64,000 bases of DNA, taken from the NCBI RefSeq assembly GCF_007747995.1, contig NZ_CP036276.1, positions 7,554,001 through 7,618,000 on the forward strand, written 5' to 3'. The translations under genes and the position numbers were made by a program. The notes beneath the pieces were generated by a model. It searched no databases and was not told the DNA's origin. It saw only the letters and a list, made by a program, of their open reading frames with translations. Each line of letters starts with the position of its first letter. Position 1 is the stretch's first letter. Shown here piece by piece: positions 19,935 through 34,599 of the stretch. The stretch is from Symmachiella dynata. GTDB lineage: Bacteria; Planctomycetota; Planctomycetia; Planctomycetales; Planctomycetaceae.

Positions 19935-19960
19935 CATTGTCAAATCGGTCATTGACAATG
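19935..19960. promoter_or_regulatory. Operator-like inverted repeat overlapping a -35 box
   Basis: Perfect nine-base arms CATTGTCAA (19935-19943) and TTGACAATG (19952-19960) with an eight-base spacer. The right arm contains the TTGACA of the predicted promoter of the downstream gene set, a good position for a repressor. The regulator is unknown. Confidence 0.5.
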
Positions 19961-19981
19961 CTTAAGAGCGGCCTGTAGAAT
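19952..19981 (+). promoter_or_regulatory. Sigma-70-type promoter of the ExbB/ExbD gene set
   Basis: TTGACA (19952-19957), an 18-base spacer, then TAGAAT (19976-19981). A perfect AT-rich palindrome, TATTATTA-G-TAATAATA (19984-20000), follows directly and would cover the start region. The first gene begins at 20097, leaving a leader of about 110 bases. Confidence 0.6.
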
Positions 19982-20096: not shown

Positions 20097-21800
20097 ATGC
20101 AGGGACAATTATTGGGCTACCTCCTTGAGCAACGAATTGCCGGGAGACTGGCATTATCGCTGGTCGTCCTGCTCGTCGTGTCGAGTATTCCTTGCCGCGG
20201 CGCTGAATATGCAACTGAAGCGGAAATCAAAAAGGCCATCGAGAAAAGCAAGACTTTTCTGCTGCAAGATATCGAGAGAGGGACAAATCGAGCGTCAATC
20301 GGAGCAGTGGCGCTGCTGAAAGCAGGGGTCAAGCCGAGCGATAAACGTGTCAAGAAGGTGTTGGACGATTTAGCGAGCCGCTGCCAAGGGGACGAATTCA
20401 AACCCTACAGCAGGCATGCAGGCATCTATGAAGCCACCGTCTACATCATGGCGTTCGCCAATAGCGAACCTGATAAATACAAAGCGGAAATCCAGTTCCT
20501 GGTCGATTGGCTGATAAAATCGCAACGTGCGGACGGCGGTTGGGAATATCCGGATGAAAAAAATTCGGCAGATACCAGCCAATCGCAGTACGCACTGCTG
20601 GGCCTGTGGGAAGCTTCCATTCAAGGGGCTGAGATCGATCCAAGTGTATTTGATCGAGCCGTCCGTTGGCATTTGGCGACTCAAAGAAAAGATGGCGGTT
20701 TTACTTATGAGCCCGGCCAAGCGGGAACAACAAGCTCGACACACAGCATGACTGCCGCTGGAACCGGAAGCTTGCATATCTGCCGGATGTTTATGTTCCC
20801 TTCCACCAAAGATTCAGCTTCACCGTTTGCCGGTGACTCGAGTGCTCGAAAAAAGAAAGCCAGCGATCGGAAGAAGTTCGGTATTTTGGAAGATCCTGAC
20901 CTCGTGGAGGCGGAATTAGAAAAATCGGCGACCAAAAGTGCGCCACGCAGAACCGTTGGCGGTGCTGCGCTGAATGCGAGTATCGGGAGGAGTCTGGGCT
21001 GGTTGAACCAAAACTTCGTCGTGAGAAACCCGACCGGTTGGCCGATGTACTATCTCTATAGCCTGGAACGGGCGATGGCGTTGGCGAATATCGAGGAACA
21101 ACTGGGAAATCATGCCTGGTATCGCGAAGGAGCGACGCATCTCGTTCGATCGCAAAATGAGCGTGGGGATTGGCGAGGAAATGGCGGACCGGGGCCCAGT
21201 ACAGCTTTCGGATTGATGTTTCTGACGCGGGCGACACACAAGACGCTCGGCCGTCGTCGTGTCCGTCGGAAAATCGGCGGGGGACTTCTCGCCGGTGGTC
21301 GCGGATTGCCGGATGATTTGAGCAGCACCTCAATCGAAGGCGGTACTGTCAAACAACGAAAAATGACCGGGCCGGTGGATGAACTGCTTGCCGTTTTAGA
21401 AGATCCCAAAAATGCCAATTTCTTCCAGGCCCAAGAGGCTTTGGTCGAAACCGTTATCTTGGGGGACCCCAAGGCCTTGGTGGGCAAAACCGACAAGTTG
21501 CTCAAATTGGCATCAACAAAAAATGACGAAGTCCGACGGACCGCAATGTGGGCTTTGGGCCGCAGTCAGGACATCACTGTCGTCCCGACTTTGATCCAAG
21601 CACTCAGTGACCCGAACCTGGACACCATGGTTGAAGCTCGCAATGCACTGCGATTCATTAGCAAGCGGATTGACGGTTTCGGACTACCGGCCCAGCCCAG
21701 TGACAAAGAACGTGAACGTGCCATCGCACGCTGGAAGAAGTGGTATCTGACCGTACGACCTTATGATGAACAGGACGACCTACTGACGGTGGAGCAGTAG
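20097..21800 (+). CDS. Exported squalene-cyclase-like alpha-toroid protein with HEAT repeats
   Basis: A 567-residue protein with a signal peptide (hydrophobic core LALSLVVLLVVSSIPCRG). Residues about 40-400 contain prenyltransferase/squalene oxidase-type alpha/alpha repeats with QW-like motifs: SQRADGGWEYP, TQRKDGGFTYEP and SQNERGDWRGNGG. No cyclase DXDD motif is seen, so it is probably a binding scaffold and not a terpene cyclase. Residues about 430-540 form HEAT-like repeats (KNDEVRRTAMWALGRSQD). The protein should be periplasmic. It is the first gene after the promoter at 19952 and probably opens the ExbB/D operon. Confidence 0.82.
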   Translation: MQGQLLGYLLEQRIAGRLALSLVVLLVVSSIPCRGAEYATEAEIKKAIEKSKTFLLQDIERGTNRASIGAVALLKAGVKPSDKRVKKVLDDLASRCQGDEFKPYSRHAGIYEATVYIMAFANSEPDKYKAEIQFLVDWLIKSQRADGGWEYPDEKNSADTSQSQYALLGLWEASIQGAEIDPSVFDRAVRWHLATQRKDGGFTYEPGQAGTTSSTHSMTAAGTGSLHICRMFMFPSTKDSASPFAGDSSARKKKASDRKKFGILEDPDLVEAELEKSATKSAPRRTVGGAALNASIGRSLGWLNQNFVVRNPTGWPMYYLYSLERAMALANIEEQLGNHAWYREGATHLVRSQNERGDWRGNGGPGPSTAFGLMFLTRATHKTLGRRRVRRKIGGGLLAGGRGLPDDLSSTSIEGGTVKQRKMTGPVDELLAVLEDPKNANFFQAQEALVETVILGDPKALVGKTDKLLKLASTKNDEVRRTAMWALGRSQDITVVPTLIQALSDPNLDTMVEARNALRFISKRIDGFGLPAQPSDKERERAIARWKKWYLTVRPYDEQDDLLTVEQ

Positions 21801-21924
21801 CTGAGTTTCTTTTCGTCCTTGACCATTGCCGCTTGAATACTTCTCTCCCATTTCGATCCTTTATTGCAGATGTAACCCACCGCCGAGTCCAATTAGCTTT
21901 GCCGATTGACCGCCTTTAACCGGT

Positions 21925-22863
21925 ATGTCATTGGCACACTTTCTCTCAAAGCAGCAACGCCCGCCGATGCCTTCAAAACGTGAAAAGTCAAAACCATCTC
22001 ACACACCCGTGCTAGATGTCACCCGCTACGATAAAGTCGCAGCTTGGTTGATTGCGCTGGTCGTCGGGATATCGCTGGCAGCCTCATGGGAGGTGGCCTT
22101 GCATTTCATCAATCGCCCCGCGCAGGCCAGTGATGCGGTGGCCATGGAGTTTATTGAAGTGGCCGGCGGCAGTGAGGATGGGGCCATTGATGAGACGTTG
22201 CTGTTAGAGTCGCCCGCCGAAGAAACCGCCGATCCCTCATTGGCCGAAGTCGAATCGGAAGAGGTCGAGGTTCAAGAATTGTTAGACAACGTCATCGACC
22301 TGGCCGACCAAGCGGTGGAGCAGACCAATCGCCAACTCGAACTCGATGCGGTGAACGCCGGCAAGCCGGGCAGCGCTTCGGGAACCGGTCGCCGCGCTTT
22401 GGGCATTGGCGATGGCCAAGGAGGACTGCCCCGTGACCAACGCTGGTTTTTCCGCTACGACGATCAAATCACCCTTGATGAATACGCGCGACGACTCGAC
22501 CACTTCGGTGTTGTGCTGGGGGTAATTCAAGGCAAGGAATTGGCCTATGTGTCAAATTTTTCCAAAGCGCGACCGGATGTGAAGCGGGTGAAATCCGGTG
22601 AAGGCGAGAAGCGGTTGTATTTGACATGGCAAGGGGGCGGACGCCGCGCGGCGGATGCCCAACTCTTTAAAAAAGCTGGAATCGACGTAACCGGTTTGAG
22701 CATTTTTCAATTCGTTCCGGGCAAGCTGGAAAATGAACTGGCCCAGTTGGAACGTGAGTATCAGAACCGTCCCGCTGAACAGATTCGCCGGACTTACTTC
22801 GTCATTAAAAAGGCGGGGACCGGCTACAATTTCGTCGTGACACGACAAATTCTCTTCCGTTGA
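21925..22863 (+). CDS. Single-span inner-membrane protein in TonB position
   Basis: A 312-residue protein with a basic cytoplasmic N terminus (KREKSKPS), one membrane span (about residues 40-60, WLIALVVGISLAAS), an acidic periplasmic stretch rich in Glu and Asp (about 80-135), and a C-terminal domain of about 140 residues ending TGYNFVVTRQILFR. The N-in, one-span, extended-linker layout and its place directly before ExbB are like TonB or TolA, but I do not recognise a TonB C-terminal fold. The start is uncertain: ATG 21925 or ATG 21967, neither with a clear ribosome site. It ends 30 bases before ExbB. Confidence 0.7.
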   Translation: MSLAHFLSKQQRPPMPSKREKSKPSHTPVLDVTRYDKVAAWLIALVVGISLAASWEVALHFINRPAQASDAVAMEFIEVAGGSEDGAIDETLLLESPAEETADPSLAEVESEEVEVQELLDNVIDLADQAVEQTNRQLELDAVNAGKPGSASGTGRRALGIGDGQGGLPRDQRWFFRYDDQITLDEYARRLDHFGVVLGVIQGKELAYVSNFSKARPDVKRVKSGEGEKRLYLTWQGGGRRAADAQLFKKAGIDVTGLSIFQFVPGKLENELAQLEREYQNRPAEQIRRTYFVIKKAGTGYNFVVTRQILFR

Positions 22864-22893
22864 ACTTACGCTACTTAGAATTGGTTAACACGA

Positions 22894-23562
22894 ATGGACT
22901 TTACGCAAATTCTCGACTGGGGCGGCAACTTCATCTACGCGATGTTGGCATTGGTCGCCCTGTACGGCGCCTTTACTGTCATCCTGTTGTTGCGCCGCAT
23001 CCAAGAGAAACAATTTTCCAACGCTGCTGCCGACGAATTTCTGGAGCAGGTCCGAGAAAAACTGCAAACAAAAGATTTCGACGGTGTCGCCGAGTTGTGT
23101 GACTCGCCCGCTTATTGGAGCAAAGCTGTTCCGCAATTGGTGCTCTTTGCCCTGAATAAAAAAGAGCAGACGATGAGCCGCTTGCGTCGCGGATTGGCGG
23201 AAACGTTCGAGCGCGAAATTCTGGCCGACTTGGAATACCGCATGTCGTGGGTGGGCACGATCGTCAAAAGTGCTCCGATGTTGGGGTTGCTGGGAACGGT
23301 CATCGGTATGATCAGCGCGTTTCAACAATTGGATCTCGCGCAAAGCGCTGGGGGCGAAGGGGGCGAACAACTCGCCGGTGCCATCAGTGTGGCCTTGTTC
23401 ACAACCGCGGCCGGTTTGGCGGTGGCCATTCCGCTGGTCCTTGCCGGGGCGTTGATCAATGTTCGCATTGGCCGCCTGCAAGATGGCGTCCAGCATTGGA
23501 TCGGTGAATTTTTGGATGACTACGAGGTCGCCGTGGGCAGTGCGGGAGGGCGGGACAGTTGA
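22894..23562 (+). CDS. MotA/TolQ/ExbB proton channel family protein
   Basis: A 222-residue inner-membrane protein, the channel subunit that forms a pentamer around ExbD/TolR dimers and uses the proton gradient. Span 1 is near residues 14-34; the family hallmark APMLGLLGTVIGMI is near residue 130, and TTAAGLAVAIPLVLAGALIN forms the third span (about 168-192). Length and order match ExbB/TolQ. The stop overlaps the start of the next gene (TTGA), so the two are translationally coupled. Confidence 0.93.
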   Translation: MDFTQILDWGGNFIYAMLALVALYGAFTVILLLRRIQEKQFSNAAADEFLEQVREKLQTKDFDGVAELCDSPAYWSKAVPQLVLFALNKKEQTMSRLRRGLAETFEREILADLEYRMSWVGTIVKSAPMLGLLGTVIGMISAFQQLDLAQSAGGEGGEQLAGAISVALFTTAAGLAVAIPLVLAGALINVRIGRLQDGVQHWIGEFLDDYEVAVGSAGGRDS

Positions 23563-24014
23563 GACGACGCCGAAACGCCCTTGCTGATGATGAGGGCGGA
23601 CAATTCAAAACCAACAAACGTGAGCAAGAAGCGGATTTAGACATCACGCCGATGATCGACGTCACGTTTTTGCTGCTCATCTATTTCCTGGTCAAGTCCA
23701 CGATGGACCCCTCCGAAGCATTGGATTTGCCCAAGGCCAAATACGGAGACGGTATCAACGGCAATCAAAGCACGGCCATCACAATCAAGGCGGGACGCAA
23801 TGAAATCGCTTCGATCTTGTTAGACGATGGCCGCGAGGTGGATGTCGATGACGTGCGGAGGCATGTCGAAGAACAAGTTGCCGCCGGCGTGAACAAGGTG
23901 ATGATTCAAGCGGAACGCGAAATCTCACACGGCGACGTACAAAATGTAGCCCGCGCGATTGCGGAGATCGAAGGTGTGGAGTTCTTCATCGCAGTCGAAG
24001 AAAAAGAACCGTGA
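23559..24014 (+). CDS. ExbD/TolR family protein, first copy
   Basis: A 151-residue protein with one membrane span that begins with the hallmark DITPMIDVTFLLLIYFLV (about residues 29-46). The Asp in MIDV is the proton-carrying residue known from ExbD and TolR. A periplasmic domain with the usual beta-alpha pattern (STAITIKAGRNEI, KVMIQAEREISHGDV) follows. It starts at TTG overlapping the ExbB stop by four bases, with GGAGGGCGGG just upstream, which supports the start and coupling. Confidence 0.92.
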   Translation: MRRRRNALADDEGGQFKTNKREQEADLDITPMIDVTFLLLIYFLVKSTMDPSEALDLPKAKYGDGINGNQSTAITIKAGRNEIASILLDDGREVDVDDVRRHVEEQVAAGVNKVMIQAEREISHGDVQNVARAIAEIEGVEFFIAVEEKEP

Positions 24015-24160
24015 TGTGCCGCGCGATTGGCAAGAAGGCCGGCCTCAAGCTGGCCGATTGCTGTGAGTCGCTATTGCTATTTGAAACGATCCTCCCTCAG
24101 CAGGGTGTGGAATAACAAATTTTGGTGATCCGCTGTTTGACATCAGCGGCAAAAAATACG

Positions 24161-24790
24161 ATGCCCATCAAATTCCGCTGTGCCCATTGCGGCAAAAAAA
24201 TCAAAATCACCTCGCGAGCCGCCGGACGAAATGTCAATTGTCCGAAGTGCGGTGACACCGCCCGGGTTCCGTCGCCGAATTCTCTCAAGCGTGCCAGCAA
24301 GCCGTATCAGCCGCATCAGTATCTCGATACCGAAGCAGAGGTGGGAGATTTTCAGCTCCGCAAGCGTGCGACGTCCGAGGATGATTTGGACCTAACCCCG
24401 ATGGTCGACGTGACGTTTCAGTTGCTGATTTTTTTCATTTTGACCGCGAGCATGAGTTTGCAAAAGGCAATTGCCGTTCCGCCCCCCGATCCGCAACGGG
24501 AAGGGGCGCAATCGACGCCGATTTCGCTGGAAGACCTGGAGGTCGATTCGATCATCGTGGAAATCCAAGCGGACAATACCATTATCGTCGACGACGAACC
24601 GTTGGCGGCCGACAGCAACCTTGCGGAAATGTTGCAACAATCCATGGACTCCTCGGGTCGCCACGAAATGGTGATCAATGCCCATGCAGATTCCTTTCAT
24701 GAAACGACCGTAACCGTGTTTGATGCGGCAAACGAAGTCGGCATGCAAAAAATCCGCATGACGACAACCGGCGGCGAGGATGACGAATAG
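24161..24790 (+). CDS. ExbD/TolR family protein with N-terminal zinc ribbon
   Basis: A 209-residue protein. The N terminus MPIKFRCAHCGKKIKITSRA and NCPKCGD form a CxxC...CxxC zinc ribbon of the kind found at the start of many planctomycete proteins. A linker leads to the ExbD hallmark DLTPMVDVTFQLLIFFIL (about residues 78-95) with the conserved Asp, then a periplasmic domain. The ribbon must be cytoplasmic, so this second ExbD offers a docking site on the inner side. ATG 24161 was chosen because it starts the ribbon; 146 bases separate it from the first ExbD gene. Confidence 0.9.
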   Translation: MPIKFRCAHCGKKIKITSRAAGRNVNCPKCGDTARVPSPNSLKRASKPYQPHQYLDTEAEVGDFQLRKRATSEDDLDLTPMVDVTFQLLIFFILTASMSLQKAIAVPPPDPQREGAQSTPISLEDLEVDSIIVEIQADNTIIVDDEPLAADSNLAEMLQQSMDSSGRHEMVINAHADSFHETTVTVFDAANEVGMQKIRMTTTGGEDDE

Positions 24791-24944
24791 CCCCGGTCGA
24801 CTATTGCTGCCGGCAGCGGTGGCGACGACTGATTTATTGACCTACTGGCGAATGTCCCGAATTTGATTTTTATGACGTGAAGATGACGTCATGAACCGGT
24901 TTTGACACCGCCTTCAGCATTTACCAAAAACGACCGAGCACGAT

Positions 24945-27900
24945 ATGCCCGCCCTCGAAATTCGACTTCCCTCCGGTCCGAATGACTTCGTTCAACTTTC
25001 TAAGGAAATTCCGATTTCGATCGGTAGTCATCCTTCGAATGATGTCTCCATCGACGACGCGAGCGTTGCGCCCATGCATTGCCGCGTGAGTTGGCAAAAA
25101 TACTCCTACCGGGTCAATTCAGCGGCCGGGTCTGAGGTCTTGTTGAACGGAAAAGAAGTCGCCAAGGCGTCGCTAAAGGTTGGCGATGTAATTTCCATTG
25201 GCAAAGCGAAAATCACTGTGGTCGATGGAAATCGGGCTGGGCACGACGATCAGGCGCAGGCGGACATCAGCGAGTTTGAGTTAAAACCGTTGGACTCCGA
25301 TGAGACGATTCGCGCCAATCGAGAAGCAGCATTGCACGAGCCGCTGCAGGAAGAACCAGTGGCCACTGAGAAGGCCCCGCCGGAAAACGATCCGCCTTCA
25401 AAAAATCGTCGCAAAAAGAAGCAACAACGCGTTCCCGCACCGTCCTCTGAGTCGGTGGCAGAATTGAGCATGGGCGACATTCTAGCCAGCGACGACGCAT
25501 TGCCGACGACGGGATCGTCGAGTAAAGATTCCAAACGATCGCGGGCAGACAAGTCGTCGAAAAAAGATCGCGCGTCGGAGAAAACGAAGACGAAAACGTC
25601 ATGGAACGGCGGGCGCGCCGTTCGCCCAGGTGAACGCAATATCCTGCAATCCCCGTTGGTACTGACATTGGGTGGCGGGGGATTGATCCTGCTGTTACTG
25701 GCGCTGACCTTCCGGTTTATGAACAACCGCCAAGAAGTGGATGGGCGATTTCAAGAAGCGGCGGTTGCGAAACAGGAAGGGAAATACGCTCAAGCGATTA
25801 AGGCATTTGAGCGGTTCCTGATCAATTATCCCCGCGATTCCTCCACCAACAACGCGCAGATTCAATTGGGCTTAACGCGGATCCAACAACACGTATCGGG
25901 TTCGACGCCGGCGTGGGAATTGGGATTGCAGTCGGTCCACGAGTACCGCCAAAAATCGAAGGACCTGCCGGAATTCAGCGAAGAGGCCAACGCGCAGGAG
26001 TTGGAGGGATACATCAAGAAAATTACGCTGGGGGCGGCAACCAGCGCGAAAAACAATCTCGATCCCGCGTTGTTGGAGATCTCCGCCGAGGCGGGGACAT
26101 TGCTTAAGCGGATCGGTGTGGACAAGAAAGAGACGGAAGAACATCTCGCCCGCGTTGGACGTGTGGCGAAAGAGGCCAATGACGCGATCCTGAAACGAAA
26201 CACCTTTGACGCTGCTGTCGCAAAAATCACAGAAGCATTGGCTGCATCGCAGGCGATTGCCGCTCTTGATGAGCGACGGGCTCTGCTGGCGCGGTATCCT
26301 GATTTTGCGTCCCATCGCGAAATCAAAAAGCTGATGGAACAGGCACTGGAACTCGAAAAATCCACGGTCACCCGCGAAGCTGAGTCGGTCGCCGCGACGA
26401 CAACCGAACGAGAATCAGACGTCGCTTCGGTCTTGTCGTTGGTTCGTCATTCCCGCGCACAAAGTGGTAACAAATCCGAGAACTCGAGCGTGGTTGTCCT
26501 GTCGGAAAACTCATGTATGGCGGTCGACACCATCAACGGGACCCCGCTGTGGAGTCGCACGATCGGCTACGACACGCCGTTTTTTCCGCTCGAACAAACG
26601 GTTCCCGATCCGGCGCTGTTGATGTTTGATACGCGGAATAATGAGTTGCTGCTGGTCTCCAAAGCAGACGGGAAACTGATTTGGCGAAACGCTGTCTCCT
26701 CGCGTGCTTCGGGCAGTCCGGTCGTAAACGAAGGTCAAGTGTTTCTGCCCACGACCGACGGCGAACTGTGCCAATTCGATTTAGAAACCGGTGAACTGAC
26801 TGCGAAGTTGAAATTCGCACAACCCATTTCGTCCGCTCCAGCGATTTCGGAGTCGGGAGAGTATCTGTTTGTCGCCGGGCACCAAGGAGTGATTTACATT
26901 CTCTCCCGCCGCCCGTTGGAGTGTATACAAGTCTTTGACAGCGGGCATGCTCCGGGAGTCATTGAAGCTCCATTGATGGCCATGGGGCCTTATCTGTTGG
27001 CGATCGAAAATAGTCAGGCGAACAACTGCAACTTCCGGCTTTATGATGTGACCGAGGCGGACAAAGGTCTGAATGAGGTCGCGTCCTATCAAGCTGTCAG
27101 CGAACTTTTGGGACATGTCAAAGACACACCCGTGTTGCGGGGAAATCGCATGTTTGTCCCCTCCAGCGGCGAACGTGTCACTGCGTTTACCGTTACAGAA
27201 GAAGATGGGCAAAAGCCGCTCTCCTATGTCGACAGTTCGCAGAACGAATCTCCGATTGGCTGCCCGATTTATTTGGCGGTCGGTCCCGATGACCAAATGT
27301 GGATGGCTGCACGCGATTTGCGGAAGTTTCAACTCACGCTGGACCATCTGGAAGAAGAGGTCAAGCAGCGGATGCGAGTGGGACTGTGTGCCCAACCGCT
27401 GCAGGTCGAAGGGAATTCGATTTTTGTTGCTGGACGGTTTCCGGCAAGCCGCGCGGTCTTCTTTCGCGGAGTCGATCGGCAAGCCATGTCGGGACAATGG
27501 TTGGTAGTTGTCGGGGCACCGATCTTGGCGACCGCTGCACCGAACCCGAGTGATAATTCAATCGTCTGCGTGACCGCTGCCGGCGATCTGTTTCTCGTAA
27601 CAGCAAAACGAATTAGCGAAGGGGGCATCGACACGCGGCCGCTGGCGCAATTGAAGATTCAGGACGACCCCGAGGCCGCCTATCATGCGAAACGACTCGC
27701 CGATGGTCGAATGGTGGTTTATACCACCGGGGCCAAACCACATTTGTGGGTGGTCAATTCTGGCGGCGGTATTGATTCGGAGTTGGCGCTCAAAGAGCCG
27801 CTGCAAATCGCCCCCGTCGAATTCGGCAAATCTCTGGTCCTGCCGCTGCCTGGAAAATTGCAACTGCTGGGCCGTTCAGCATCGGGAGGACGCGTGCAGG

Positions 27901-28544
27901 ACTTTGCATTGCCTGTCACGGGAAAGAAGCCCGATGCTTGGAAAGCTTTAGCACCACTGGCCGACGATCAAGTCATTGCATTGACATCGACTGGGATGCT
28001 CTCGCGATTGCAGTTGAGGGAACAAGACAATGTCTCATTTTTTGACGAAGTCACTTTGATCCATTTGGATCATGCCGTGGATGTTGGCATGGTCGTATCC
28101 GGTGATCGACTGCTCATCGCCGATGCCGAACCCTCGTTGAGTGTGCTCAACGGACGGTCCCTGGAAGTCGTCGCTAAGGCGGCGCTGCCACAACCGGCTC
28201 CGCTGGCTCCTTGGATGATCGAAGATCGTGTGTATATTCAATGCGGACGCGAACAACTGATTTGCTTTCAGTTAGGCGACACGCTGAACAAATTGTGGGA
28301 AGTTCCGCTTCCGCAAACCTCGCTGGCCGGTACCCCGCTCATGCAGGATGGAGAGTTATTGGCGGCACTGCAAAACGGTGAGATTCTGCGCATCAATCCT
28401 GACACAGGGGAAGTGCAACACCGATACAACGTGCAGCAGGCGATCGGCGACGGTCCGTATTTATTGGGCGATCAACTGGTCGTGATTTCGCCCGATGGCG
28501 GATTTATTGCCGTGCAAACTGAGAAACAAGGGGCGGGTCAATGA
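24945..28544 (+). CDS. FHA-TM-TPR-beta-propeller membrane protein
   Basis: A 1199-residue protein. Residues about 18-90 are FHA-like but lack the phosphothreonine-binding Arg (GSHPSND) and Ser (VAPMHC). A long Lys/Ser/Glu-rich linker (95-225), one span (about 236-260, LTLGGGGLILLLLAL), a TPR-like helical region (about 265-460) and a large PQQ/WD-like propeller (about 480-1195, e.g. AVDTINGTPLWSRTIG, FDLETGELTAKLKF) follow. By topology the FHA is cytoplasmic and the propeller periplasmic, so it could carry information across the membrane. It overlaps the next gene by four bases (ATGA). Confidence 0.85.
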   Translation: MPALEIRLPSGPNDFVQLSKEIPISIGSHPSNDVSIDDASVAPMHCRVSWQKYSYRVNSAAGSEVLLNGKEVAKASLKVGDVISIGKAKITVVDGNRAGHDDQAQADISEFELKPLDSDETIRANREAALHEPLQEEPVATEKAPPENDPPSKNRRKKKQQRVPAPSSESVAELSMGDILASDDALPTTGSSSKDSKRSRADKSSKKDRASEKTKTKTSWNGGRAVRPGERNILQSPLVLTLGGGGLILLLLALTFRFMNNRQEVDGRFQEAAVAKQEGKYAQAIKAFERFLINYPRDSSTNNAQIQLGLTRIQQHVSGSTPAWELGLQSVHEYRQKSKDLPEFSEEANAQELEGYIKKITLGAATSAKNNLDPALLEISAEAGTLLKRIGVDKKETEEHLARVGRVAKEANDAILKRNTFDAAVAKITEALAASQAIAALDERRALLARYPDFASHREIKKLMEQALELEKSTVTREAESVAATTTERESDVASVLSLVRHSRAQSGNKSENSSVVVLSENSCMAVDTINGTPLWSRTIGYDTPFFPLEQTVPDPALLMFDTRNNELLLVSKADGKLIWRNAVSSRASGSPVVNEGQVFLPTTDGELCQFDLETGELTAKLKFAQPISSAPAISESGEYLFVAGHQGVIYILSRRPLECIQVFDSGHAPGVIEAPLMAMGPYLLAIENSQANNCNFRLYDVTEADKGLNEVASYQAVSELLGHVKDTPVLRGNRMFVPSSGERVTAFTVTEEDGQKPLSYVDSSQNESPIGCPIYLAVGPDDQMWMAARDLRKFQLTLDHLEEEVKQRMRVGLCAQPLQVEGNSIFVAGRFPASRAVFFRGVDRQAMSGQWLVVVGAPILATAAPNPSDNSIVCVTAAGDLFLVTAKRISEGGIDTRPLAQLKIQDDPEAAYHAKRLADGRMVVYTTGAKPHLWVVNSGGGIDSELALKEPLQIAPVEFGKSLVLPLPGKLQLLGRSASGGRVQDFALPVTGKKPDAWKALAPLADDQVIALTSTGMLSRLQLREQDNVSFFDEVTLIHLDHAVDVGMVVSGDRLLIADAEPSLSVLNGRSLEVVAKAALPQPAPLAPWMIEDRVYIQCGREQLICFQLGDTLNKLWEVPLPQTSLAGTPLMQDGELLAALQNGEILRINPDTGEVQHRYNVQQAIGDGPYLLGDQLVVISPDGGFIAVQTEKQGAGQ

Positions 28545-31087
28545 GTCTATTTACGACAGAGCAACTGATCGAACAGAGCCGCCGGTCTCGACAGCGATTT
28601 CGCGCGATTGTCGTCGTGATCTTCGCGGTCGGTTTCGTGTCAACATTGGCGATCACTGCGCAACAGACCGCCGCGCAAGAGTCAGCCGACAAGGCGGCTG
28701 CCGAGACCGAAACGCCGGACAATCCGGACGCTGAGAATCCGCCGGCAGAAGAGGAAAAAAAAGAAGAACCGCTGCCGATTTTGGAGGAAATGCAACCCCT
28801 CTCGGTCGAACAGCTGATGAAGGGTCCCGCAGAGGACTGGATAGTGCTCAATGCCAAGGATCAAGTCCTGGTGGTTCAACCGGTCGACCCGCGACCGAAT
28901 ACCTTGGAGTTCTTAGCGGACCGGCTGAAGTATCCCGATAAGTATGAACCAAAGAGTTTTGGCGTCGATGAAGAAGGCAAGCCGCTTGCGGGAGAGGCTC
29001 TGGAAAAAGCGAAGCGTGTCTGGCGTAAAACGTTGGTCTACCTCGAAGTGCATATGCCCTTTGACAAAAATGACATCAGCGAAGACGCGGACCGCAAATT
29101 TTTCATTCCCTTTCGCGTCATTAAGGAAATCATCTACTTCGAAGACTTGATGCTCAAGCAGATCGATACGTTTCTCGACGAAAAGAAAATCAGCGAAGCC
29201 TACGAGATGGTTGTCGTGTTGCGGAAGCGCAGTCCGAAATGGCCGGGACTGCAGTTTCGCGAAGAAGGGTTGCTGTTTGCTGAATCGGCCCGATTAGTCG
29301 ACGAACAAAAATTTGAGCTGGCACTGGTCGATTTGGAACAGCTGCACGAACGCAATCCCAAATACCCTGGGCTGCCCGATGCCACTGCGAACGTTGCTGA
29401 CATGCTGATCAAAGATGCTGAGGCAGTGGGGGACTTTCGCCGTGCACGGCATTTTTTAGAGCGCCTCAAAGCACGATTTCCCCAGCATCGAACCGTGACG
29501 CGCTGGACCGAGACGCTGACCGCCCGGACAGCGTCCTTGATGCAAGAAGCAAAAACGGCCGAATCGGCTGGCGACATCGAAAAAGCGTTGGCCGCGGCGG
29601 AAACCGCTGCATTGGTGTGGCCCAACACGCCTGGGTTACGGACCCTGTATGGCCGGTTAGCACGGCGGCATCAACGCTTGCGCGTCGGCGTGCTTTTACA
29701 GCCCCGTGATGTGCCAACTCCCCTCAATCGTACTGTCGCCGATGACCGCTTGCGCGAACTGACGCAGTCGACGCTGTTTGAACCGGACTACTTGGATGAA
29801 CAAATTGTCCGTTACCGTAGCGGGTTTTTGAATGAATGGGAGCCGACGAATCTTGGACGCCGGATCCGTTTTCAACTGCGTCCCTATCGCCAATCATGGG
29901 AGTCGCAACCGGTGACGGTCGCCCTGCCGATGATCCGACAACTGTCAGACAAGATGCAGACCAACAGTCAGAATTTCGATGAGCGACTGTCGGACCGCAT
30001 TTCCTCGGTAGCGCAAAAATCTCCATTCGAGTTCGACGTCGAATTCGAAAATGTCCCCCTGCGGCCCGAGCCATTGTTCTCCTATGCATTAAACGGCCCC
30101 GGCTCGTTTGAGTTGGCGAAACGGGACGAACGGTCGATCACTTATCGCCGCGCCATTCCCGAGCAGCCCGACGACAACCAGTATCACATCTCAGAGGTTG
30201 TTGAAGTTCAGTATGACACGCCGGAAAAAGCGATTCAGGGTTTGCTGCGGGGGCAAGTGGACATGCTGCCTCAAATTCCGCTGCGGGATGTGGATATTTT
30301 GAGTGAGCTCTCATCGTTTTTCGTTCAGAAATATCAATTGCCAAAAACGCATCTGGTCCAGTTCAACAACCAGAACAAGGCACTACGCAGCCGAGCGTTA
30401 CGACGGGCGATGGCCGCCTGTCTCGACAACCAACGTTTGCTGGAGGAATTCGTCCTCAAATCTCCACCGAACGGGAAGGGACGTTTGACCTCCGCACCAT
30501 TTCCCCAAACCAGTTATGCATATGACACAGCAGTGCTTCCGCAGGACTATGACATCGAATTGGCATTAGCATTGTCGATCGCCGCGCGGAAGGAATTGGG
30601 AGGGGCGTTGCCCAAACTCTCCCTACGAGCTCCGCCCGACCCGGAAAGCCGTATCATTGCCAAACAGTTGATCGCTGCTTGGGCCCGCATCGGCCTGGAA
30701 GTCACGTTGGTCGAAGATGATGGAACCGTTGGCGAGGATGACTGGGATTTGGCCTATCGTATTATCTCCATGCGCGAACCGGCCGTCGAATTGTGGCCGC
30801 TGCTCACCGGCAAGGAGACAGCTGAAATCGCGGACCTGAAATACTTACCCAACTGGTTGCGGCAAAAGCTTGTCGAACTAGATCGCGTGTCGGATTGGAG
30901 CCGCGCGGAGAATTTGTTGCACGGGCTGCATCGTGATATGGCGGCTGAAGCGCAAGTCATCCCGCTGTTTGAAGTCGATGAATACCTCATCGTCCGCAAG
31001 ACTGTGCGGGGGGTGCCGGAGGCCCCAATTTCCACTTATGACGGAATCGAACAGTGGGTCGTTCAACCTTGGTACCCCAAGAAATAG
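28541..31087 (+). CDS. Exported TPR protein fused to an oligopeptide-binding-like domain
   Basis: An 848-residue protein. An N-terminal signal anchor (about 20-42, IVVVIFAVGFVSTLAI) is followed by an acidic Pro-rich stretch, TPR-like repeats (about 210-375) and a C-terminal region (about 385-840) that resembles extracellular solute-binding family 5 proteins: GLLRGQVDMLPQIPLRDVD, FNNQNKALRSRALRRAMAAC, and EAQVIPLFEVDEYLIV. Family 5 proteins normally deliver peptides to an ABC transporter; no permease or ATPase gene is nearby. The start overlaps the preceding stop (ATGA). It may be a ligand-sensing or substrate-binding part of the ExbB/D assembly. Confidence 0.8.
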   Translation: MSLFTTEQLIEQSRRSRQRFRAIVVVIFAVGFVSTLAITAQQTAAQESADKAAAETETPDNPDAENPPAEEEKKEEPLPILEEMQPLSVEQLMKGPAEDWIVLNAKDQVLVVQPVDPRPNTLEFLADRLKYPDKYEPKSFGVDEEGKPLAGEALEKAKRVWRKTLVYLEVHMPFDKNDISEDADRKFFIPFRVIKEIIYFEDLMLKQIDTFLDEKKISEAYEMVVVLRKRSPKWPGLQFREEGLLFAESARLVDEQKFELALVDLEQLHERNPKYPGLPDATANVADMLIKDAEAVGDFRRARHFLERLKARFPQHRTVTRWTETLTARTASLMQEAKTAESAGDIEKALAAAETAALVWPNTPGLRTLYGRLARRHQRLRVGVLLQPRDVPTPLNRTVADDRLRELTQSTLFEPDYLDEQIVRYRSGFLNEWEPTNLGRRIRFQLRPYRQSWESQPVTVALPMIRQLSDKMQTNSQNFDERLSDRISSVAQKSPFEFDVEFENVPLRPEPLFSYALNGPGSFELAKRDERSITYRRAIPEQPDDNQYHISEVVEVQYDTPEKAIQGLLRGQVDMLPQIPLRDVDILSELSSFFVQKYQLPKTHLVQFNNQNKALRSRALRRAMAACLDNQRLLEEFVLKSPPNGKGRLTSAPFPQTSYAYDTAVLPQDYDIELALALSIAARKELGGALPKLSLRAPPDPESRIIAKQLIAAWARIGLEVTLVEDDGTVGEDDWDLAYRIISMREPAVELWPLLTGKETAEIADLKYLPNWLRQKLVELDRVSDWSRAENLLHGLHRDMAAEAQVIPLFEVDEYLIVRKTVRGVPEAPISTYDGIEQWVVQPWYPKK

Positions 31088-31089
31088 CT

Positions 31090-32637
31090 ATGATTCACCA
31101 CGAACGAAAATACGATATGAAACAAGCGCCGATTATCAGTCGTCGACTCATCGCTGCAGTGCTCCTGGTTGGCCTATTCAGCGTTCCTGCATTCGGCGCG
31201 ACCGACGAAGCGGAAGCGGAAGTGGAAGTGGAAATTCCCACGACGTTGCAGCCGTACAATGTTCGCGTGTTCGTGGCCATCGACGACAACGTCGAATTTC
31301 AACTCAATTTCCGCAAACGGATCTTGGCCGAGTTGCGCGACCGCTGCGACGGATATTGGGGCCGCATGTGCACCGTTTCGGTGGAGGAGTTTCCGCGTTT
31401 GTTTCCCGCCACGGCAACGACGCTGGACCGCTTGGCCATCACGCATGAATCGCCGGAGGTGGCAAATTGCGACAAAGCCTTTTTCTTGACCCTGCAGGCC
31501 GACGGCGGGGGATATCTCGTCGCTGGAAAATGCTGGGACGCAACCACGCGCGAAACGAGTGAGGTGATTTCCTCGCAGGTCTTCCGCCGCAGCGATATCG
31601 CGGACCGGTTGTTCGGCTTGTTGAGCGACCTGTTTGAGCCGATTGTGGAGATCGCTGATTTTGACGAGAAGCAGGTGACGCTGCAAATTCGCGCCGGTGA
31701 ATTTTTGCCACCTGATCCCAGCCAAGCCCCGTTGAAAACGGGCCGCTTGTTGACGCCGTTTTATCGTTTCATCACCCGAGAAGGAGACGTGCGGAAGATT
31801 CAAGAAATTCCGTGGACCTATTTGGTTGTTACCGATGTGGATCGCGCAACGGCAAATTGCAGTATCGTCAGCGGACTCCGCGTGCCGCTCACGACGCGAC
31901 GCCGCCGGTTGATTGAAGTGTTGGCGCAGGGCGTTCGCCCGAAATTTGATTCCACACGGTTGAAATTCGTTTCGCAGCAATTCACCGATCACCCGATGTT
32001 CGGCGTAACGGTCAGCATCGTTCCGGAGAAAAGCGAAACGACCGCTGCGGAATCCACCGAAGAATCGACCGGCGAGGAGCAAGCACAGGTAGCTAAACCT
32101 GAACCGGTGACGATGATGACCGACCGCGCCGGTACGGTGACCATTTCAGGCGATGGCTCGAACAAGCCAGTGATGTTGGCTGTGCACAGCGGCAAATCAG
32201 CGCTGGCCAGGGTCCCGCTCGTTCCCGGGTTGGAAGCCGAAGCGGAAATACAGCTTCCCGACGATAGCGTACGGCTGAACGTCGAAGGCCAATTGGCCGT
32301 GTTGGAAGCGGGAGTCATTGACGCGGTTGCCAAACGCGCTGTGCTTATGGCGCGGGCTCGATCGGCGATTAAGGCCAACGACTGGAAAAGCGTCGATGAA
32401 TTCTTAGAGCGGATGGATAAAATTTCCGGGCCTTCGCGTATGCAAACCGAACTGACCATTATTCGGGAACGGGGTGTGAGTGCAGCGATGGCGCGAAAAG
32501 ATGTTTCTGCAAAGCGGCGGATTGAACGCCTGTGCTCGAAAACCAGCGAACTGATTGAGACTTACCTCAGCCTGGACAAGATCAATCAGTTCCGCGAGGA
32601 AACCGCTGAGCTACGCAAAGCATTGGGCGCCAAGTGA
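31090..32637 (+). CDS. Exported protein of unknown function
   Basis: A 515-residue protein with a signal peptide (RRLIAAVLLVGLFSVPAFGA) starting two bases after the preceding stop codon. The mature protein begins with an acidic Glu-rich stretch, then a domain with two conserved-looking Cys pairs (RDRCDGYWGRMC, GKCWDATT), a central beta-rich part, an acidic Ser/Thr/Glu linker (about 330-350) and a helical C terminus (RSAIKANDWKSVDEFLERM). I recognise no family. Tight spacing puts it in the same operon as the TPR/solute-binding gene. ATG 31117 is an alternative start. Confidence 0.78.
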   Translation: MIHHERKYDMKQAPIISRRLIAAVLLVGLFSVPAFGATDEAEAEVEVEIPTTLQPYNVRVFVAIDDNVEFQLNFRKRILAELRDRCDGYWGRMCTVSVEEFPRLFPATATTLDRLAITHESPEVANCDKAFFLTLQADGGGYLVAGKCWDATTRETSEVISSQVFRRSDIADRLFGLLSDLFEPIVEIADFDEKQVTLQIRAGEFLPPDPSQAPLKTGRLLTPFYRFITREGDVRKIQEIPWTYLVVTDVDRATANCSIVSGLRVPLTTRRRRLIEVLAQGVRPKFDSTRLKFVSQQFTDHPMFGVTVSIVPEKSETTAAESTEESTGEEQAQVAKPEPVTMMTDRAGTVTISGDGSNKPVMLAVHSGKSALARVPLVPGLEAEAEIQLPDDSVRLNVEGQLAVLEAGVIDAVAKRAVLMARARSAIKANDWKSVDEFLERMDKISGPSRMQTELTIIRERGVSAAMARKDVSAKRRIERLCSKTSELIETYLSLDKINQFREETAELRKALGAK

Positions 32638-33120
32638 ATTGGTCGACAACAGGGGGGGCTTGCCGCTTGTTTTTTATAGCAGGGCATTGCCCCAACACCC
32701 GCCGGCGCCGCCTACCCAATACACACGACCGACAAATCGGCCCAGGTCCAACAAAACCTTCCAGGCTTCCGCGAATTTGCAACAAGCAAATACGTTGCAT
32801 CGTGAATCGGTCGCAAATGCCGAGCGACCCGTCCAAACCATCGCGTTTTCGCATTGAAACAGCCCGCACTGACCCCCTGATCGCTCTCGTCACACGGACT
32901 TGCAGGGACGGCATTTGCGGCAAACTCCCCTGTAGATCCCCCGGTGTGGAATGTTCAAATTGGTTCCGACACACCCGCCTCGCAGGTGGTAGAATTCAAG
33001 CAACTCGACTCATGTCGCGCATGACTGCGCTTCATGATGTCTGAATGGAAATTTTTTTGTCGTTTTCATTAGATCTTCATTGGCTTGAACAACACGCAAC
33101 TGCAACGGGCAGGTCGTCTC

Positions 33121-34599
33121 ATGGCCGGACAAATTCAAATTTCGAAGCGGTGGATTATCACAGCGCTGTGGATCATGGTGGCTGCTGGGTGCGCTGCGCC
33201 CAGTCGCAATTCGTCCTTAACCACGATCGAGGACCGGACTGCTTACGCTCCGCAATTCCGCGGTTACAACGGCCCGGGTACCAGTGCCGTGCCACAGCAG
33301 ACCCCGACCGTGCGCGTCGAAAAGCCAACGATGAGTGAACCACCACTGACCGAACCGACTTTGGATGGGACGGAATTTGAGGAATTCGCGGAGACCGAAG
33401 AGACCGAGGATGTGATCCTTCCTGAACCGGATCCACGGATTGCCCCTTACCGGGAGTACCCAAACGTGGAAGCCGGGCCGCTGCTGGCCCCGGCGCCGTT
33501 GATCACGCCGCCCACCGAGGGGAACGATACCGACAATGCTGCTCAGCCGGTTCGTTTGTTATTGGAGATTGTCCGACCGGAACGCGCGACGCTGGACGGC
33601 GACGTGCGGTTTGACGTGACCATCCGCAACGAGACGAACCGAGACGCCGAAGACATCGACGTGTATTGCACGTTTGAGCAAGGTCTGCAATTTCCCGGCA
33701 AAGAGGAAACCGAACTGCGGCGAAACATCGGCAGCATTGCGGCGGGCGAGTCACAGACGATGTCGCTGACGCTCATTGCAAAACAACTCGGACGGCACTG
33801 CGCACAGTTCACAATCAAATCAGGCGGGACAGAGGTGGTTTGGAAATCAGTTTGCACGGATGTCACCAAGCAAGCGATGTCGCTGGAGATCATCGGCCCG
33901 GACCGCCGCAATGTGGGCAGTCGCGCGGAGCATACGATGACGATTGTCAACGTCAGCGATACCGTGCTGCACGGAGTTCAAGCGGAGCTGACATTTGATG
34001 ATGCGTTGGTTCCCAAGGAAGCGACCGAAGGGGCCGTGGAGGGTGAGGACAGCTTGTCGTGGAATCTGGGTGACCTGCAACCGGGCGAAGTTCTACAACT
34101 GCAAGTGGAGTTTGAATGCGAACGCGCCGCCGAGGTGGCCAAGTTTGATGTCAAATTGACCGCAGCGGGTGGCAGCACACTTCGCCGCGAAACCGGCCTG
34201 CAAATTGTCCCGGGGCGGGGCTTGTTGGACTTGAGAATTCAAGATCAAGCCGAACCGATCGCCGTTGACGATGAGGTTGTCTATCTCGTCACCGTACAAA
34301 ACCGTGGTTTCCAGGACGTCCGCAACGTTCAAGTCGGACTGACGCCACCGACCGGCATCAAAATCCTCGACGTAAGCATCAAGCTCAACGACGAACCGCT
34401 CGAGTTGCCCCACAAAGTGCAGCGGGGGACTTGGGATTACGAAACCATGCGACAGCTCCCCGCCGACAGCACGCTGCAATTTCAGATTCGCGCACAAGGC
34501 GTCCGCGCCGGAAACCACAAATTCGTTGCAGCGGTCAAAAGCGACCTCGACAGCAAGCCGCACACCATCGAAGAATGGACCACCATCAACGCCCAATAA
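33121..34599 (+). CDS. Lipoprotein with CARDB/DUF11-like repeats
   Basis: A 492-residue protein with a lipoprotein signal (KRWIITALWIMVAAGC; lipobox VAAGC at about residue 24). A Pro/Glu-rich stalk (about 30-150) is followed by three or more beta-sandwich repeats of CARDB/DUF11 type: LLLEIVRPERATLDGDVRF, MSLEIIGPDRRNVGSRAEH, and LLDLRIQDQAEPIAVDDEV, each with a following NxTxxDAxDV-like strand. These domains usually act as adhesive or spacing modules. ATG 33121 was preferred over the TTG at 33085. A 483-base spacer (32638-33120) without a gene separates it from the ExbB/D operon, so it may be transcribed separately. Confidence 0.82.
   Translation: MAGQIQISKRWIITALWIMVAAGCAAPSRNSSLTTIEDRTAYAPQFRGYNGPGTSAVPQQTPTVRVEKPTMSEPPLTEPTLDGTEFEEFAETEETEDVILPEPDPRIAPYREYPNVEAGPLLAPAPLITPPTEGNDTDNAAQPVRLLLEIVRPERATLDGDVRFDVTIRNETNRDAEDIDVYCTFEQGLQFPGKEETELRRNIGSIAAGESQTMSLTLIAKQLGRHCAQFTIKSGGTEVVWKSVCTDVTKQAMSLEIIGPDRRNVGSRAEHTMTIVNVSDTVLHGVQAELTFDDALVPKEATEGAVEGEDSLSWNLGDLQPGEVLQLQVEFECERAAEVAKFDVKLTAAGGSTLRRETGLQIVPGRGLLDLRIQDQAEPIAVDDEVVYLVTVQNRGFQDVRNVQVGLTPPTGIKILDVSIKLNDEPLELPHKVQRGTWDYETMRQLPADSTLQFQIRAQGVRAGNHKFVAAVKSDLDSKPHTIEEWTTINAQ

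Follow-up and report, generated by a model that had tools for sequence, protein, structure and literature searches.

We analysed a window of 64,000 nucleotides of NZ_CP036276.1, from the complete 7.77 Mb genome of Symmachiella dynata, in which eight genes of the forward strand (positions 20097–32637 of the window) very probably work as one functional system. They encode, in order, an exported alpha-toroid/HEAT protein, a one-span protein, ExbB, two ExbD proteins (ExbD1 and ExbD2), a membrane-anchored TPR/propeller protein, an exported TPR/SBP5 fusion and a further exported protein. At roughly even confidence, we propose that the cluster encodes a single trans-envelope machine, driven by the proton motive force and specific to Planctomycetia, whose most likely role is Tol-like envelope work; taken by itself, the Tol-like task is plausible at somewhat less than even confidence. 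In Planctomycetia, division proceeds without FtsZ and the envelope is unusual; such a machine could bear on how the outer membrane is energised and remodelled where TonB and TolB are lacking. The run was first noticed in an earlier reading made from the DNA letters (the sequence-only reading). The listing of open reading frames (ORFs) and the Pfam and NCBIfam profiles confirmed its eight co-directional genes and their domains.

The order toroid/HEAT–transducer–ExbB–ExbD1–ExbD2–TPR/propeller–TPR/SBP5–gene 8 recurred at 22%–63% identity in several families of Planctomycetia, so that conserved gene order, set beforehand as the point on which the sequence-only reading could fail, was indeed found. 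Matches to the TPR/SBP5 protein from 199 genomes of the phylum led to the same order in 11 genomes of three families. When the bacterial and archaeal genome collection was scanned with the transducer alignment, 79 loci were kept, and most of them, where the contig permits, read transducer–ExbB–ExbD1–ExbD2–propeller–SBP–gene 8, often with the toroid gene in front. Synteny in draft genomes is limited by contig ends. Only one of these loci was labelled as belonging to a group other than planctomycetes, a 9-kb contig titled Alphaproteobacteria MarineAlpha3_Bin4 that carries a transducer piece of 48% identity (L152:2-553); because no other locus bears such a title, it is probably a mis-binned planctomycete contig.

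The transducer and the TPR/SBP5 protein were present in 133 and 135, respectively, of 149 genomes of the class. Both were found in 127, at most 15 kb apart in 85 of them and on different contigs in many others. The system is mostly single-copy in the class. Two transducer genes were seen as neighbours in one genome (G495; L186:13424-15768) and 34 kb apart in another (G307:C1:1349224 and 1383577). In a sample of 392 genomes of the phylum, the transducer and gene 8 each matched strongly in one and the same set of 40 genomes (28 from the host's own family, 12 others from the class); the remaining matches (three to the transducer, four to gene 8) were weak, with E no better than 1e-6. Judged by sequence comparison, gene order and content conserved to this degree across families are more than chance. 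The sequence-only reading had also asked whether the SBP5 and propeller proteins occur alone more often than with ExbB/ExbD. The SBP5 protein accompanies the transducer and ExbBD and does not tend to stand by itself, whereas the distribution of the propeller protein was followed through synteny only.

The genes do not stand in one run in every genome. In Isosphaeraceae (family f82; L165 and G422), the toroid, transducer, propeller, SBP and gene 8 genes stand together without ExbB–ExbD1–ExbD2, which lie elsewhere. Every genome of f82 and f108 that was tested held ExbB at another locus, with 185–206 bits to the cluster profile vs. at most 117 for the best paralogs, and in all four genomes inspected the orthologous ExbB was followed by ExbD1 and ExbD2. 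Within the host's own family, one genome (G373) carries the toroid–transducer pair at one site and the remaining six genes at another, and in a second (G283) the transducer is separated from the rest; at L164 and L183, the ExbB–ExbD1–ExbD2 block is divergent from the transducer. The break points differ among these genomes, yet all blocks were kept, which is better evidence of a functional link than order alone.

By family, ExbB and the two ExbD proteins would form an inner-membrane motor. Gene 3 (22894–23562, 222 amino acids) matched Pfam MotA_ExbB (3e-24, 85.6 bits), and gene 4 (ExbD1; 23559–24014, 151 amino acids) and gene 5 (ExbD2; 24122–24790) matched Pfam ExbD (6e-18, 65.5 bits, and 8e-22, 78.1 bits), all over the cut-off. 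Column counts showed Thr135 and Thr171 of ExbB, which we take to be the channel threonines of ExbB/TolQ, to be invariant in 54 orthologs, and the membrane residues Asp34 of ExbD1 and Asp96 of ExbD2, presumably the proton-carrying aspartate of ExbD/TolR, to be invariant in 57 and 49 orthologs, respectively. Because these residues are invariant, the alignments support a working proton-driven motor by family, and the energy module of the sequence-only reading stands on that footing. Val166 of ExbB, assumed from an alignment on GIAEAL to be the position facing Glu176 of E. coli ExbB, is mostly hydrophobic in the 54 orthologs (Phe, Val, Leu and Ile being the four commonest residues). The probable start of ExbD2 is the ATG at 24161, matching orthologs that begin MPI.FRC; its zinc-ribbon-like N-terminus is not universal, two CxxC motifs within the first 70 residues being present in 28 of 49 orthologs.

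Gene 2 (21925–22863, 312 amino acids) is probably the transducer. Its AlphaFold2 (AF2) model (m3d8eef5acb1e) predicts a transmembrane (TM) helix at residues 34–62 (35–62 by hydropathy, which was used for TM and signal stretches throughout), a low-confidence linker and a globular C-terminal domain (CTD) at about 170–310, with blocks mostly at 83–97 of the predicted local distance difference test (pLDDT). TonB and TolA share this predicted topology. The placement of a one-span protein in the position of TonB stood in so far as the single TM helix, linker and globular CTD are conserved; it did not extend to the sequence, which is unrelated to TonB. A TonB relationship was rejected, with an hhalign probability of 0.1% against planctomycete TonB_C. 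Neither gene 2 nor gene 8 matched a family in Pfam or NCBIfam, and the 65 gene 2 orthologs matched no Pfam family, vWA included, except for a marginal DUF6479 in 3 of 65. With the whole chain as query, the model had no match in PDB by Foldseek at E 1e-3 or by VIA at Z ≥ 5 and no vWA-like fold match, and comparison with PDB sequences gave nothing meaningful. A new fold of the predicted CTD is unproven, since the whole-chain model served as query. At best, gene 2 works like TonB or TolA; it is not a member of their family. The vWA force-transducer systems of PVC (Planctomycetes–Verrucomicrobia–Chlamydiae) bacteria (PMC12204202) share with the cluster a TolQ-like gene, two TolR-like genes, a TPR gene and a transducer that is TonB-like but carries a CTD of a new kind; the CTD found here shows no vWA match and the partner genes are others.

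Three genes behind the motor provide candidates for periplasmic partners. Gene 6 (24945–28544, 1199 amino acids) comprises an FHA domain (Pfam FHA 2e-9), a TM stretch at 233–259, a TPR stretch and a PQQ/BamB-type beta-propeller (PQQ_2 2e-24). In profile comparisons, the propeller resembles BamB and the TPR stretch YbgF, and by analogy a BamB-like propeller and a YbgF-like TPR stretch recall TolB and CpoB. The FHA domain, which the sequence-only reading had counted as part of the set, is not conserved. It is present in the window and at L165, but seven of the eight distant orthologs tested lack it, while all eight retain the propeller, and it was dropped as a core part. Because the domain is absent from most distant orthologs, phospho-control appears to be optional. 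Gene 7 (28541–31087, 848 amino acids) is an exported fusion of TPR, which fell below the cut-off, and SBP family 5 (Pfam SBP_bac_5 9e-16, 58.4 bits against a cut-off of 32.4), with a TM or signal stretch at 18–42; its profile matches the structures of HbpA, NikA and DppA, which bind heme, nickel and dipeptides, respectively, at 3e-18 to 9e-15.

Gene 8 (31090–32637, 515 amino acids; hydrophobic stretch at 13–39) encodes an exported protein that had been described as unknown. This holds for sequence families but not for the predicted structure, in which domains like those of TolB and FlgT can be recognised. The AF2 model (md610b22eb269, pLDDT 89.7) comprises a TolB-N/FlgT-like domain and barrel (52–284), an Ig-like domain (286–390) and a helical bundle (391–515). 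Foldseek matched FlgT (9e-9), the LPHT ring (3e-9) and TolB (8e-6) over the N-terminal half, with low whole-chain TM-scores, and VIA gave a middling Z of 7.8 for both TolB (110 residues, 3.0 Å) and FlgT (9.8 Å). TolB is a partner of TolA (PMC9389320), and FlgT is the protein of the proximal H ring in Vibrio motors, where stators need the H and T rings in order to associate (PMC7693769). Because of these pairings, the predicted likenesses point to gene 8 as a protein that partners a 5:2 motor in the periplasm, as a lead rather than a proof. In Vibrio flagella, a periplasmic protein whose fold is similar (the FlgT/H-ring) works close to the ion-driven 5:2 motor of the PomAB stator; the likeness to the cluster is one of fold only, and the cluster has no flagellar genes.

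From gene content, co-occurrence, motor residues and predicted topology and folds, we infer how such a machine might operate. The one-span protein would stand in for TonB or TolA, with its TM helix docked on the motor and its CTD, unrelated to that of TonB, reaching periplasmic partners. The TPR/propeller, TPR/SBP5 and TolB/FlgT-like proteins could form an effector complex touching the cell wall and outer membrane, and the toroid/HEAT protein may act together with the transducer. The task would be to pull on or remodel the outer membrane and wall, which is the job of Tol-Pal elsewhere, in cells without TonB and TolB. The function of the whole, offered as an inference by the sequence-only reading, keeps that standing.

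Whole-genome domain searches, in which controls were positive where expected, found no TonB_C (PF03544) and no Plug domain of TonB receptors (PF07715) in the complete genome, whereas 8 of 20 relatives carry Plug; TolB_N (PF04052) was found neither in the host nor in the 20 relatives, and no genome of the class was among its matches in the 392-genome sample. The absence of a TonB receptor and of TolB, first noted for the region, thus holds for the whole genome. Tol-Pal has been described as largely reduced in Planctomycetes (PMC8871954). Four OmpA-domain proteins are encoded in the host genome, none of them in the cluster and one beside a MotA/ExbB-family gene. ExbD1 and ExbD2 have no OmpA domain, in contrast to the peptidoglycan-binding B-subunit of a MotAB stator, and a defence system of the Zorya (ZorAB) type was rejected after genes 2–8 gave no PADLOC match. 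Membership in Ton, Tol-Pal and Zorya therefore fails. The claim that the set is undescribed and absent from known systems stood as far as the open-access literature goes, where no published description of it was found. Because the host lacks Ton and Tol-Pal, the standard users of such motors, the cluster probably constitutes a separate machine that works on the outer envelope.

A Tol-like task is favoured on the grounds that the system is almost universal in the class and mostly single-copy, that some of its parts are TolB/FlgT-like or of the propeller/TPR kind, and that TonB and TolB are absent. Tol-Pal (TolQRA-TolB-Pal-CpoB) has a motor of the same TolQ/TolR family, a one-span transducer, a beta-propeller, TPR proteins and a periplasmic protein with a TolB-N-like domain. 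The two differ in that the host is without TolB_N and TonB_C and that, here, the propeller is membrane-anchored and BamB-like, ExbD is doubled, SBP5 and toroid proteins are added and the cluster has no Pal gene. Several observations count against a Tol-like machine. TonB, TolA and the vWA transducers use the histidine of an SHLS motif in the TM helix on the motor (PMC12204202), and only 3 of the 75 gene 2 orthologs have a His in their TM region. Ligand binding, suggested by the SBP5 domain, is not a feature of Tol-Pal. The likeness of gene 8 to TolB and FlgT is structural only, a sequence comparison with PDB having found neither. TolB_N is uncommon throughout the phylum, including classes without this system, so that the absence of TolB is not specifically matched by the presence of the cluster; a clean swap with TolB is unsupported for the same reason. 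In family f101 (presumed Gemmataceae), relatives of the transducer and the TPR/SBP5 protein have diverged and lie at scattered sites; the system itself may be altered in that family. Finally, the support consists of homology and prediction, which cannot show assembly or force transfer.

The main rival, owing to the SBP domain, is an uptake machine in which motor and transducer open an outer-membrane channel encoded elsewhere while the TPR/SBP5 protein catches a peptide, metal chelate or heme. The matches of gene 7 to heme-, nickel- and peptide-binding proteins and the TonB-like topology of the transducer would suit this explanation, which we nevertheless regard as unlikely. Neither an ABC permease nor an outer-membrane channel was recognised among the conserved genes, the host genome has no Plug-domain receptor, and near-universal presence in the class suggests housekeeping rather than a single substrate. 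The comparison with Ton itself (ExbBD-TonB) is similarly divided: the ExbB/ExbD motor and the transducer topology agree, whereas the CTD is unrelated to TonB_C and the SHLS histidine and a TonB receptor are lacking.

Less probable still is a mobile surface or assembly machine of the Agl-Glt type, in which the motor would move a trans-envelope complex bearing adhesins or depositing stalk or fibre material. In Myxococcus xanthus, AglRQS also consists of one TolQ-like and two TolR-like subunits, GltG has an FHA-TM-periplasmic architecture and the periplasmic portion is built from TPR proteins (PMC3169522), and gene 6 has a weak match to the GltG profile (E 9e-4). On the FHA protein of the cluster, however, a propeller replaces TonB_C, which is found neither in gene 6 nor in the genome, and the FHA domain is not conserved; the cluster adds SBP5, toroid and TolB/FlgT-like proteins, has no recognised outer-membrane barrel and is class-wide in Planctomycetia. 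Gliding is not known to be general in this class. It is very improbable that the cluster is a sensor, with SBP5 and propeller sensing a periplasmic signal, FHA relaying it to the cytoplasm and ExbBD acting as an energy-dependent switch: genes 6 and 7 do hold FHA and SBP domains, but FHA is absent from most distant orthologs, the zinc ribbon is not universal and no regulator or kinase was recognised among the conserved genes. Equally improbable are independent envelope genes held together by operon inertia, since the blocks, although separable and, in f101, scattered, are all kept after separation at different break points and have nearly identical phyletic profiles.

If the cluster does encode one proton-driven machine, a further type of transducer would join the known range of proton-driven envelope motors. 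We tentatively extend this to a more doubtful proposal: that the cluster is a third major ExbBD/TolQR-powered envelope system beside Ton and Tol-Pal, ancestral to Planctomycetia and with a new-fold transducer domain, which replaced Tol-Pal-type work on the outer membrane when the FtsZ-type divisome was lost and budding adopted. Divisome genes are scarce in Planctomycetia and kept in Phycisphaera (PMC10632474), the same class boundary as that of the distribution of the cluster. The class-wide gene set with its recognisable motor offers named deletion targets in Planctopirus limnophila, a species that is genetically tractable and has been covered by a genome-wide insertion library; the main text of the library study, which covers essentiality in Planctopirus, names no Exb or Tol gene (PMC10632474).

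Within the window, the couplings described earlier were found as stated, with four-base overlaps at 23559–23562 (genes 3 and 4) and 28541–28544 (genes 6 and 7) and a two-base gap at 31088–31089 (genes 7 and 8). A candidate sigma-70-like promoter on the forward strand (19952–19981; TTGACA-18-TAGAAT, matching the consensus at 11 of 12 positions) lies 115 bases 5' of gene 1, as a consensus match only, and the pattern scan found a single further match on this strand within the run (9 of 12), inside a coding region. A good site in front and a weak one inside would be weak evidence for one transcript, because the scan as a whole shows no excess of sites (7 found vs. 6.1 expected). A co-directional gene for an exported DUF11/CARDB-repeat protein lies downstream of the run (33085–34599); it was dropped as a member of the cluster, being absent at every orthologous cluster examined.

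Gene 1 (20097–21800, 567 amino acids; Pfam SQHop_cyclase_C 1e-7, HEAT_2 8e-9) has orthologs that adjoin the transducer in several families, although it was not found beside the transducer in some members of the host's family (L038–L042 and L046). At two loci, a 90-amino-acid ORF (M[AS]QA[VI]VDP[DE]DLRRFAGMLRDFN...) occurs near the toroid–transducer pair, upstream of the toroid gene in both (L122:7357-7629 and L124:7301-7573). Elsewhere in the S. dynata genome, a second ExbB–ExbD locus (L057:5522-12478; G000:C1 about 4498521-4505477) has a 1046-amino-acid TPR protein before ExbB and, after ExbD, a 744-amino-acid protein that weakly matches toroids of the squalene-cyclase-like kind; ExbBD may thus have a toroid partner outside the cluster as well.

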